DNA of 54,328 nt from Thermomicrobiaceae bacterium (lineage in GTDB: Bacteria > Chloroflexota > Chloroflexia > Thermomicrobiales > Thermomicrobiaceae), in the NCBI GenBank assembly GCA_014874455.1, contig JADBJL010000063.1:1-54328 (forward strand). The letters run 5' to 3'. Within the stretch, counting starts at the first letter, position 1; every line of letters begins with the position of its first letter. Below, one piece after another: positions 19,613 through 52,663 of the stretch. Under the pieces are notes generated by a model. The model was not told the DNA's origin. It worked only from the letters and a program-made list of their open reading frames with translations, and did no database searches. Both the position numbers and the translations under genes were made by a program.

Positions 19613-19685
<73 letters not shown>

Positions 19686-48550: not shown

Positions 48551-49336
48551 ATGGAGATCGGCACCCCTGACCTGGTGTTCGAGCGTCGTGGACGCGTGGC
48601 TTGGCTCACCTTCAACCGGCCGCAGACGCGTAACGCGATGACGTTCGCCATGTACGACGGCCTGGCGCGCGTGTGTGAGCTGGTGGAGCAGGATCCGGAG
48701 ATTCGGGTGCTGGTGCTGACCGGCGCCGGAGACAAGGCGTTCGTGGCCGGCACCGACATCAGCCAGTTCCGGACCTTCACCGACCCGCAGCACGCGCTCG
48801 ACTACGAGGAGCGGATGGATCAGGTGATCGGCCGGCTGGAGGCCCTGCCCCGCCCGACCATCGCCGCTATCCGCGGCTATGCCGTGGGCGGTGGCGCGAG
48901 CATCGCCCTCGCCTGCGACCTCCGCATCTGCACCCCCGATGCCCGCTTCGGCATCCCGATCGCCCGCACGCTGGGCAATTGCCTCTCGATGGCCAACTAC
49001 GCCCGGCTAGTCGACCTGATCGGGCCGGCGCGCACCAAGGAGCTGCTCTTCACCGCGCGCATGATCGAGGCCGAGGAGGCCAGAGCCATCGGCCTGGTCA
49101 ACGAGATCGTGGAGCCGGAGGCGCTGGTTGATCGCACGCAGGAACTGGCCGAGCAAATCGCCGCCAACGCGCCCCTCACGATCCAGGCAACGAAGGAGGC
49201 CGTGCGCCGGGTGCTGGCCCACCGGCGGCCGCCGCGGGCTGAGGATCTGATCCTGACCTGCTACATGAGCGAGGACTTCCGCGAGGGAGTGAACGCCTTC
49301 CTCGAGAAGCGCAAGCCCCAGTGGAAGGGCCGGTGA
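48551..49336 (+). CDS. Enoyl-CoA hydratase/isomerase family protein
   Basis: A 261-residue crotonase-fold protein. It has WLTFNRPQTRNAMTFAMYDG, the oxyanion-hole segments AFVAGTDISQF and AIRGYAVGGGASIALACDLR, and the C-terminal helix region EARAIGLVNEIVEPEAL. At the usual catalytic glutamates (hydratase Glu144/Glu164) the sequence is RFGIPIARTLGNCLS, without an obvious Glu pair, so isomerase, hydrolase or ligase-type activity is possible. ATG 48551 with GGAGG just ahead. It probably forms a two-gene operon with the CoA-transferase. Confidence 0.9.
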   Translation: MEIGTPDLVFERRGRVAWLTFNRPQTRNAMTFAMYDGLARVCELVEQDPEIRVLVLTGAGDKAFVAGTDISQFRTFTDPQHALDYEERMDQVIGRLEALPRPTIAAIRGYAVGGGASIALACDLRICTPDARFGIPIARTLGNCLSMANYARLVDLIGPARTKELLFTARMIEAEEARAIGLVNEIVEPEALVDRTQELAEQIAANAPLTIQATKEAVRRVLAHRRPPRAEDLILTCYMSEDFREGVNAFLEKRKPQWKGR

Positions 49337-49641
49337 CACTCATAGCCATCTGTACGGCATAGCCGAAGCGCGGCCATTACTGCACACTGATCGAAGCTCC
49401 GCATCGACGGCGGGAAAGTCGGCTGGGAAAGAAGTATCCCCGCCGGGGACTGCCTCCGGTCTGCTTCGGCAGGCTTCCTTCAGATCGGCGGGGCTTTCGA
49501 GCACCTGACCGCACGCCACAGGCTCTCGTCTGCTCGACTTCAGACGCCGCGAAGAGAGATCGGCTCCGACTTCCCAACCGATCCTGTGTTGGGGTAAGCT
49601 GAGTTGCCTGCATCTCTTGCCTACCTTCCGGGGAGGTCGCT
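49337..49641. other. Intergenic region upstream of the helicase
   Basis: A 305-base gap with somewhat lower GC than its left neighbours. No coding frame with a recognisable domain. The helicase promoter should lie near the right end; no clear hexamers are seen. GGGGAGG (49631-49637) is the helicase ribosome-binding site. Confidence 0.45.
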
Positions 49642-52566
49642 ATGGATCCCCTGGAGTGCATGCTTGCCGCGCTCGACGACGAGATCGCCGCCACCAGGCG
49701 TAACGGACGCCGCGCGCTGCTCGAGCTGCGGGATGGTCAACGCATCGGGCAAGAAGGAACGATCTGGCTCTACCAGTTCACGCTCACTGGCGAGACCCCG
49801 CTCCGTGACGATACGCCGGTGCAGATCAGCGTGGGAAACCTGCGTGGGAGCGGTAGCGTCGTGTCGGTACGAGAGGGTCTCGTCGTCGTTGCGTTGGAGC
49901 AGGATCTGGGACCCTCGATCCCAGCGGCTCTGCTCGAAGCTGACGCGACGTTCTTGCTCGAGCGCCTGCGCGGGCGGCTGCGAGAGGTACAGAGTGGTGG
50001 GCGCCGGTTCGAGCGCTCGTCTGCGGAGCGAGCGCTCGGTCTCCAGCAGGCGAGAGTCGGGAAGGGCGACCCGGCTCCCGGCGTGCTCGACCGCTGCCTC
50101 AATAGCGACCAGCGAGAGGCGGTGCGCCAGGCGTTCGGGAGCGAGGCGACCTTCGTGTGGGGGCCTCCCGGCACCGGGAAGACCAAGACGATCGGGCACA
50201 TCGTCGAGGCCTTCTTCCGCGCTGGCCGAACGGTGCTCGTGGTGTCGAACACGAATATCGCTGTCGACACCGCCCTCGAGCGCGTGGCGAAGCGTTTAAA
50301 GAACACACCGGAGTTCGACCAGGGCAGCGTGATCCGGCTAGGTACGATCGTCAAGGAAGAGCTTCGCAACTGCTTCGGGGAGAAGGTCGCGCTGGAGCGC
50401 GTGGTCGCGCGGCTCAGCGACGAATTACAGCAGAAGAAGGACGCATGCCGCGCCGAGTTGAGCAACCTCGAAGGTGAGCGAGAGGTGCTGCTGACTCAGC
50501 AGGAGGCTCTCCGTCAGTACGAGCAGACATGCACACGCCTCGCCGAGAAGGAGCAGGAGCGAGACCGCCTCCAGAAAGAGCACCAGCGCGTGATTCGCGA
50601 GCGACAGGGCTACGAGACCCGCCTCCACCTGGTCACTAACGATCTCGCCCGCGCTCAATCCATGAACGTCCTGCGGAGGCTGATTTCCGGGCTCGACCCA
50701 CAGCGACTCCAGCGGCAGAAAGCGGAACTCGAGGAGGCGGTGACACGGGTGACCGCCGAGCAGGCGGGGCTCGAGGCCGCGATCGAGCAGCTCGAGCGCG
50801 AGATCGGCTCGCTCCAGCACGAGCTCGAGCGTCGATCTCAGGAGACGGCCCACCTTCCTTCGCTACCCGCAGTGATGGAGCGGCTGAACGCGATCGACGC
50901 CCAAGTTGATGAAATCCTGGAGCAGATCGCGGCGATTGAGCAAGAGATCGCGGAGCTGGCACAGCGGGTGCTGAACAACTGCCGGGTGCTCGCCACAACG
51001 GTGTATCAGACCTACCTGCCTCGGTTCCCCGAGCGGCAGTTCGACGTGGTTGTGATCGATGAAGCGTCGATGCTGATGCCGCCCTTGATCTACTACGTGG
51101 CAGGGCTTGCGACGCGCGCGATCGTCATCGCGGGAGACTTCCGGCAGCTTCCCCCTATCGTGCAGGCGGAGACCGAACTGGCCCAGCAGTGGCTCGCACG
51201 GGACGCCTTCGAGCTCGCGGGTATTCCCCCTCGAGTGGAGGCTGGGAATCTGCCGCCGAACCTCGTCCTCTTGCGGACTCAGCACCGGATGCATCCTGAC
51301 ATCTGCGCCCTCGTGAACGAGCTGTTCTACGGTGGTCGGCTGCTCTCTGACGACAGCGTGAAGAATCGCTCTTCCAAGGATCGCTCTTCCAAGAATGGCT
51401 CTTCGTCGTTTCCGTTCGGAGGCGCACCGATCATTCTCGTGGATACCGCTGCTCTCGAACCCTGGGCCGCCTATCGCGTGGGGACGTTTTCTCGGTACAA
51501 CATCCTGCACGCCGTACTCGTACGAAACCTGGTCCGTACATTGGTCGAGGCAGGATTTCTCTCGCTCACTGGCCAAAACCAAGATGCCCTCGGCATCGTC
51601 TCCCCCTACCACGCACAGGCCCGGCTCATCGAGACGCTGCTGATAGCCGATTACGGGTCGAGGGCGTCCGGCATCGCAGCCACTGTGCACCGCTTTCAGG
51701 GAAACGAGAAGACGGTAATGGTCATCGATCTCACCGATTCGCACCCGCTCAGGCTGGGCCGGTTTTTCCAGGCTCGCCATGTTCAGGAGCCAGGAGCGCG
51801 CCTTCTCAACGTCGCGATTAGCCGCGCAAAGGAGCATATCGTCCTCATTGGAAACCTAGCGTACTTGCAATCGAAGGTTGACGAGCATTTCGTCTTGCAC
51901 CGCTTGATCGATCGTCTGCTCGCCAAGAGCAGTCCACTAGACGCGACAAGTCTCTTGGAACCGAGCCTGTTCAGCCAGTCTGCTCGACTCCGTCGCGAGA
52001 CGAGACAGGCAGAACCGCGTGTAGCGACGAAAGTCGTGTTCGACCATGAGGGCTTCGTGCAGGGGTTCGCTCAGGACATTCAACACGCTCGGGAAAGCGT
52101 CGTCCTGCTGTCGCCATTCATCGCCCCCCAGGCGCTCCAGCGCTGGATCGAGCCGCTTACGGGGGCGGTGAGGCGGGGTGTTCAGATCCGCGTTATCACT
52201 CGAGCCGATCAATCGGGGAAGATCGGCGAGGAGATCCGTCAGCTTCGCGCTCTCGGCATCTCGGTCGATCTCTGGGAACGGATGCACGAGAAAGTCGTGA
52301 TCATCGATGACCAGATCGTGTGGTATGGCTCCATGAATGTGCTTCAGCACCGGTCGTCGACGGAGCTGATGATCCGCTCATCCGACCAGTCACTGTGCCG
52401 GGAGATCGTCTCCATGCTCGCCGGGGTCACAGGTGAGGCCAGGGCGTTCGACGCGCTCGCGAACCCTTCGTGCTCGGCGTGCGGGGGCCAGACAGTGCGT
52501 CGGAGCCAGAAACGGTCATACCTGTGTATGACACCAGGCTGCCCTGGCCCGCCAGGGCAGCGTTGA
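49642..52566 (+). CDS. SF1 helicase-phospholipase D fusion (Mokosh type II-like)
   Basis: A 974-residue fusion. The helicase is UPF1/DNA2-like (COG1112): Walker A GPPGTGKT (174-181), a long coiled-coil insert (about 250-445), Walker B VVVIDEASM (469-477), GDFRQLPP (498-505), RTQHRMHP (545-552), SPYHAQ (654-659), TVHRFQGNEKTV (681-692) and LNVAISRAKEH (722-732). A phospholipase-D nuclease domain follows (about 798-930) with the HKD motif HEKVVIIDDQIVWYGSMN (882-899). The end carries a Cys4 zinc motif (Cys944, 947, 962, 967). This matches the described single-protein type II Mokosh defence system (MkoC, helicase plus PLD). It stands alone, with a lower-GC 3' half. A repair or RNA-processing role is the alternative. 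Confidence 0.88.
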   Translation: MDPLECMLAALDDEIAATRRNGRRALLELRDGQRIGQEGTIWLYQFTLTGETPLRDDTPVQISVGNLRGSGSVVSVREGLVVVALEQDLGPSIPAALLEADATFLLERLRGRLREVQSGGRRFERSSAERALGLQQARVGKGDPAPGVLDRCLNSDQREAVRQAFGSEATFVWGPPGTGKTKTIGHIVEAFFRAGRTVLVVSNTNIAVDTALERVAKRLKNTPEFDQGSVIRLGTIVKEELRNCFGEKVALERVVARLSDELQQKKDACRAELSNLEGEREVLLTQQEALRQYEQTCTRLAEKEQERDRLQKEHQRVIRERQGYETRLHLVTNDLARAQSMNVLRRLISGLDPQRLQRQKAELEEAVTRVTAEQAGLEAAIEQLEREIGSLQHELERRSQETAHLPSLPAVMERLNAIDAQVDEILEQIAAIEQEIAELAQRVLNNCRVLATTVYQTYLPRFPERQFDVVVIDEASMLMPPLIYYVAGLATRAIVIAGDFRQLPPIVQAETELAQQWLARDAFELAGIPPRVEAGNLPPNLVLLRTQHRMHPDICALVNELFYGGRLLSDDSVKNRSSKDRSSKNGSSSFPFGGAPIILVDTAALEPWAAYRVGTFSRYNILHAVLVRNLVRTLVEAGFLSLTGQNQDALGIVSPYHAQARLIETLLIADYGSRASGIAATVHRFQGNEKTVMVIDLTDSHPLRLGRFFQARHVQEPGARLLNVAISRAKEHIVLIGNLAYLQSKVDEHFVLHRLIDRLLAKSSPLDATSLLEPSLFSQSARLRRETRQAEPRVATKVVFDHEGFVQGFAQDIQHARESVVLLSPFIAPQALQRWIEPLTGAVRRGVQIRVITRADQSGKIGEEIRQLRALGISVDLWERMHEKVVIIDDQIVWYGSMNVLQHRSSTELMIRSSDQSLCREIVSMLAGVTGEARAFDALANPSCSACGGQTVRRSQKRSYLCMTPGCPGPPGQR
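51364..51408 (+). repeat. Three-unit 15-base in-frame repeat in the helicase
   Basis: Units AATCGCTCTTCCAAG, GATCGCTCTTCCAAG and the diverged AATGGCTCTTCGTCG encode NRSSK-DRSSK-NGSSS (residues 575-589). The repeat lies between helicase motifs RTQHRMHP and SPYHAQ, in what should be a flexible loop. It could expand or contract without breaking the frame. Confidence 0.85.
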
Positions 52567-52663
52567 CCTCGCAAGTCGCGAGAGCCACGCGTCACACGCT
52601 TCAAACAGCTCGTGTTCCCTGGCTGCCGTAGTGATTGCCCGATCCCGTCGATAACCAACCAAA

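Follow-up and report, generated by a model that had tools for sequence, protein, structure and literature searches.

The window (the whole 54,328-nucleotide stretch of DNA analysed here) carries a Mokosh-like gene that was gained by transfer and belongs to a separate lineage, one whose members often lie in defence islands. Its product is probably an uncharacterised relative in kind of Mokosh and not a true MkoC. We consider it fairly likely that this product is a nuclease-helicase acquired by horizontal transfer and directed, as a single protein, against phages (or mobile elements). It would act in the manner of type II Mokosh but belongs to its own line of UPF1-like helicases.

The reading frame is open throughout (Table 1). 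Pfam detected AAA_11 at residues 153-508 (2.7e-33), AAA_12 at 540-738 (1e-28) and PLDc_2 at 811-922 (8.4e-13). When the C-terminal regions of nine proteins were aligned, the H, K and D residues, the GSxN motif and the following E were all invariant, as were the zinc cysteines at three of the four positions. The protein thus combines the SF1 motifs and UPF1-type fold of UPF1/IGHMBP2-like helicases with the HxKx4D and GSxN motifs of single-HKD nucleases in a PLD fold. A COG1112-type helicase, a long coiled coil, a PLD domain with intact HKD motif and a Cys4 zinc finger had been proposed from the sequence alone, and Pfam, motifs and AlphaFold2 confirmed all four. The second RecA-like domain has a loop in which three tandem 15-nt units (51361..51405, plus strand) encode KNRSS/KDRSS/KNGSS. 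This loop insertion is peculiar to the window copy, the aligned relatives being without it, and residues 577-587 within it are disordered in the model (pLDDT <50).

Table 1. Features of the inserted gene and its product, with positions in the window
Feature	Position	Strand	Evidence
Single-gene insertion, 3,323 bp, in place of a 67-68 bp spacer	49337..52659		Sister genomes G012 and G010
Ribosome-binding site GGGGAGG	49630..49636	+	Sequence read; precedes ATG
Helicase-coiled coil-PLD-zinc ribbon protein, 974 aa	49642..52566	+	ORF reading, Pfam
Predicted N-terminal stalk helix and beta-barrel, aa 1-131	49642..50034	+	AlphaFold2 secondary structure; IGHMBP2/UPF1 match from residue 1
Walker A GPPGTGKT, aa 174-181	50161..50184	+	Motif read; nearly invariant in alignment A1
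Coiled-coil insertion, motif Ia to motif II, aa 260-446	50419..50979	+	AlphaFold2 helices
Motif II DEAS, aa 473-476	51058..51069	+	D473, E474 and S476 invariant in alignment A1
Second RecA-like domain, about aa 540-745	51259..51876	+	Pfam AAA_12 at 540-738
PLD nuclease domain, about aa 797-927	52030..52422	+	Pfam PLDc_2; NucT/SauUSI/Nuc fold matches
HKD and GSxN motif HEKVVIIDDQIVWYGSMN, aa 882-899	52285..52338	+	Motif read; alignment of nine relatives
Cys4 zinc ribbon, C944/C947/C962/C967	52471..52542	+	Alignment with relatives

The AlphaFold2 model, built from an input alignment of 13 sequences, had a mean pLDDT of 85 and showed an N-terminal barrel, two RecA-like domains, paired long helices between residues 260 and 446, a PLD domain and a small ribbon. 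The long helices (260-340, 353-402 and 408-446) were modelled with a pLDDT of mostly about 90. In structure searches, residues 1-775 matched IGHMBP2 (4b3g; Z 29.6), UPF1 (Z 27.6) and also DNA2, and residues 1-131 may accordingly be named a stalk and barrel of the UPF1/IGHMBP2 1B type. The C-terminal part folded alone matched NucT (Z 17.4), SauUSI (Z 16.8) and Nuc (Z 16.1), and also Zucchini and BfiI; its profile (A2) matched the topoisomerase I zinc ribbon. Absence from the Foldseek/VIA list was not taken to exclude members of the family.

The gene lies between an enoyl-CoA hydratase gene and a gene for an ABC substrate-binding protein. Two sister species encode the same flanking proteins (97% and 95% identity for the hydratase, 93% in both for the substrate-binding protein), and there the two genes are directly adjacent, 67-68 bp apart. 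Homology to the window stops at 49336 (G012) or 49334 (G010) and restarts at 52660. The third-position GC content of the gene is 0.77, against 0.875-0.918 in its neighbours, and a lower GC content in the 3' half, which had been taken as a sign of transfer, was real but mild (0.731 against 0.805 in the 5' half). The full-length gene was present in one of 158 genomes of the class, and full-length relatives occurred in only a handful of 400 genomes of the phylum. Together, the empty sites, the rarity and the GC offset show that the gene was gained by transfer. We conclude that it is a recent, horizontally acquired one-gene insertion. A housekeeping helicase conserved at this site across the class was looked for in the sister genomes and the 158 class genomes and was not found.

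The insertion had no terminal or target-site repeats at its ends, and its 324 bp upstream part had no match when 20 further genomes of the family were searched. On these results, and because the insert holds one gene only, we rejected a mobile element equipped with recombination genes of its own. Rfam and tRNA scans of the window found a single tRNA-Lys at 19613, 30 kb away, and thus no tRNA integration site. A phage-borne origin was also rejected: no relatives were found on viral contigs, and the phage collection gave one weak match only. The plasmid search returned partial matches only.

Full-length relatives with 39-47% identity were found in Pirellulales, Acidobacteria, Planctomycetia and Dehalococcoidia metagenome-assembled genomes (MAGs), and also in one further genome from the window's phylum. 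Rokubacteria carry a partial copy, and copies in Pelagibacter are 30% identical to the window protein. Between the Pirellulales relative L022 and this same-phylum copy, L102, identity is 83% across 1,048 aa. Such closeness implies transfer between phyla, with the caution that both are MAGs. Most close relatives have a second, topoisomerase-type zinc ribbon (in L022, Zn_ribbon_Top1 at 1.5e-14), which by alignment is missing from the window copy and the Dehalococcoidia copy. Because the first ribbon is common to the relatives and most of them have two, the tail appears to be ancestral and shortened in the window copy. The suggestion that the zinc tail is a late addition therefore fails. In a single genus of the phylum, divergent copies (L191:8010-11090, plus strand; L192:9654-12593, minus strand) have kept the same neighbours, indicating vertical inheritance; they match neither the pattern GPxGTGK[ST] for Walker A nor that for HKD.

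Several relatives bear signs of defence. L189 has an N-terminal TIR_2 domain (8.7e-12) ahead of a helicase-PLD-ribbon body like that of the window protein, and a second relative, L106/L196, combines TIR (6.3e-15) with the helicase, PLD not being detected. L189:6613-10422 (minus strand) and L196:5694-8798 (plus strand) thus both belong to this clade of UPF1-like helicases and carry TIR at the N-terminus. The L024 gene is preceded by a DrmMI/type IIG-like methylase gene (5e-62), a gene for a 1,261-aa protein and a short AlbA-like gene. The 1,261-aa protein (L024:3660-7442, plus strand), whose gene stands between that of the methylase and the window gene's relative, matched no Pfam or PADLOC family and is possibly an uncharacterised defence component. 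Each of three Pelagibacter copies is followed downstream by Mrr_cat and TerB genes, and a WYL gene lies upstream or nearby; the domain matches were made on L027, and for WYL also on L028, the third genome showing look-alike ORFs only. In L027:7206-12693 (plus strand, Pelagibacteraceae), the cluster of WYL, helicase-PLD, Mrr_cat nuclease and TerB lies close to tuf and ribosomal genes. This location, with the same neighbours in three genomes, could reflect a stable cellular role of the Pelagibacter copies.

Defence genes also occur beside members of the sister clade. L198, of a sister subclade with a degenerate PLD lacking HKD, lies 25 bp from an HmaA gene (1664 bits). This helicase (L198:2344-8659, minus strand) has two zinc ribbons and ends 25 bp before HmaA, and the pair is possibly an extended Hma operon. 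A restriction-nuclease-like gene adjoins L197 of the sister subclade. On a plasmid of Aulosira (Nostocales), a sister-clade helicase gene (L186:152-4588, minus strand) is divergently paired with that of a 1,478-aa MkoA-like helicase (388 bits). These neighbourhoods are associations, not statistics.

Defence is the best reading of the window gene on the grounds of the TIR fusions and defence neighbours of its relatives. The domains and motifs, the fold matches, the empty site and the patchy distribution also point to it. Four observations count against it. One is the setting of the Pelagibacter copies near ribosomal genes, described above. The strongest neighbour link, that to HmaA, belongs to the HKD-less sister subclade. 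The window copy has no adjoining defence gene: it stands alone among metabolic genes, as the sequence-only reading had noted, and its five flanking ORFs gave zero PADLOC matches. The same holds for several close relatives, and on ORF reading L022, L025, L030, L187 and L188 had no recognised defence neighbours.

If the gene does act in defence, the helicase core would engage and translocate on abnormal single-stranded phage nucleic acid (DNA or RNA) arising from replication or transcription, and the zinc ribbon and 1B barrel may steady the bound strand. The coiled coil could mediate dimerisation or contact with a partner. The nuclease site would then be made up of the one HKD motif from each of two protomers, as it is in NucT and Nuc, and this PLD dimer would cut the bound strand, so that the phage is stopped or the cell killed. 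The domain order, motifs and folds that underlie this scheme come from the sequence and structure comparisons, and the substrate, the dimerisation and the immunity are what we infer from them. The TIR variants suggest a division of labour, with the helicase as sensor and the domain joined to it as effector. A broader reading is tentative and, in our judgement, somewhat short of an even chance: the clade would be an unnamed immune family independent of Mokosh, with a UPF1-like sensor, a coiled-coil arm and interchangeable effectors (a PLD nuclease, TIR, TIR plus PLD, or a degenerate PLD beside HmaA), and helicase-PLD immunity would have arisen at least twice.

A different role is suggested by the structural matches, which are led by IGHMBP2, UPF1 and DNA2, and by the vertical inheritance of the divergent L191/L192 copies: the window protein might be a cellular RNA- or DNA-surveillance helicase of the bacterial UPF1/DNA2 kind, unrelated to phages. 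This is unlikely, since the gene is missing from the sister species and from nearly the whole class, its insertion is recent, and relatives carry TIR fusions and defence neighbours. It is slightly less probable again that the gene is a stranded piece of a defence system of several genes, inactive or only partly active without its partners (an HmaA-like helicase, a methylase, a WYL regulator). The sister-clade gene next to HmaA, the methylase ahead of L024 and the loss of the second zinc ribbon would fit such a history, but the active-site residues of the window protein are intact, many relatives are solitary genes, and the neighbours vary among relatives, so that no fixed partner is seen.

In type II Mokosh, a COG1112 helicase is N-terminal and a PLD nuclease C-terminal (PMC11672841). 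The window protein fits this outline, as had been claimed: a single gene encodes an N-terminal COG1112/UPF1-like helicase and a C-terminal PLD with an intact active site. Membership of MkoC was examined with one MkoC profile and three MkoC sequences. Using the PADLOC profiles, the window protein scored 223 bits with MkoA (2.4e-66), 157 bits with MkoC (1.4e-46) and 52 bits with MkoB (1.9e-14). The MkoC match, lower than that to MkoA, was partial (best stretch 825-1111 of 1136), whereas the MkoC plasmid proteins of Agrobacterium and Hymenobacter, taken as a yardstick, scored 1244 and 929 bits over profile positions 5-1135. In a helicase tree of 50 proteins, the window protein grouped with L022-L025 and L102 (99/98), and a 98/96 branch parted its whole clade from MkoC and MkoA. 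AU tests rejected all three groupings of MkoC: that with the core rows (p 0.0078), that with the 14 rows of the family (1.4e-8) and that with the wider clade (0.0044).

Both proteins have the UPF1-like helicase followed by a PLD with one HKD, and both have a long insert from Walker A to motif II. They differ in sequence (about 28% identity across 866 aa aligned to one MkoC), in the length preceding Walker A (about 270 aa in MkoC, 173 in the window protein) and in the zinc-ribbon CxxC pair, which was not found in the three MkoC proteins examined. MkoC identity was thus rejected by profile coverage, helicase tree and AU tests. A genuine but diverged type II MkoC is highly improbable, for although the gross domain order (PMC11672841) and the significant profile match speak for it, the partial score, the better match to MkoA, the placement of MkoC among other UPF1-like helicases with its AU tests, and the CxxC difference speak against it. 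The profiles of type I likewise recognise a UPF1-like helicase core (MkoA) and a PLD-like region (MkoB), but the window protein has no N-terminal Ser/Thr kinase domain by Pfam, and the insert holds one gene, not two, with no separate PLD gene. A fusion of MkoA and MkoB was rejected, because the helicase tree places MkoA in its other half. The layout is that of type II Mokosh but the lineage is separate, so that the gene is Mokosh-like on paper and no member by descent. Of the proposal of a type II Mokosh anti-phage candidate, the architecture, the transfer and defence as the best reading held, and the MkoC assignment did not.

Other known systems share parts of this design. CnuH of type II/III CoCoNuT systems is a nuclease-coupled UPF1-like helicase in which Walker A is followed by a helical insertion that is in part a coiled coil (PMC11090510), and by this description it resembles the window protein. 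Unlike CoCoNuT, however, the one-gene insert has no McrB GTPase or McrC nearby, and its metabolic neighbours have no PADLOC matches. SauUSI joins a PLD nuclease domain of similar fold to an ATP-driven helicase motor. This ATP-dependent restriction endonuclease has an SF2 helicase, and its domain order is the reverse of that in the window protein, the PLD lying at residues 15-192 in the structure match. NucT, Nuc and Zucchini share the PLD fold and the HKD, GSxN and E residues but are stand-alone single-HKD nucleases with no helicase.

These findings imply that partial matches of helicase-PLD proteins to Mokosh profiles should not be called Mokosh unless they are full length or pass a tree test. 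To our knowledge, it is not known how phages are sensed by helicase-nucleases of the Mokosh type. A second, separate lineage built to this plan, in which TIR and PLD effectors sit on one helicase core, amounts to a set of natural domain swaps, by which the sensing part could be told from the killing part.
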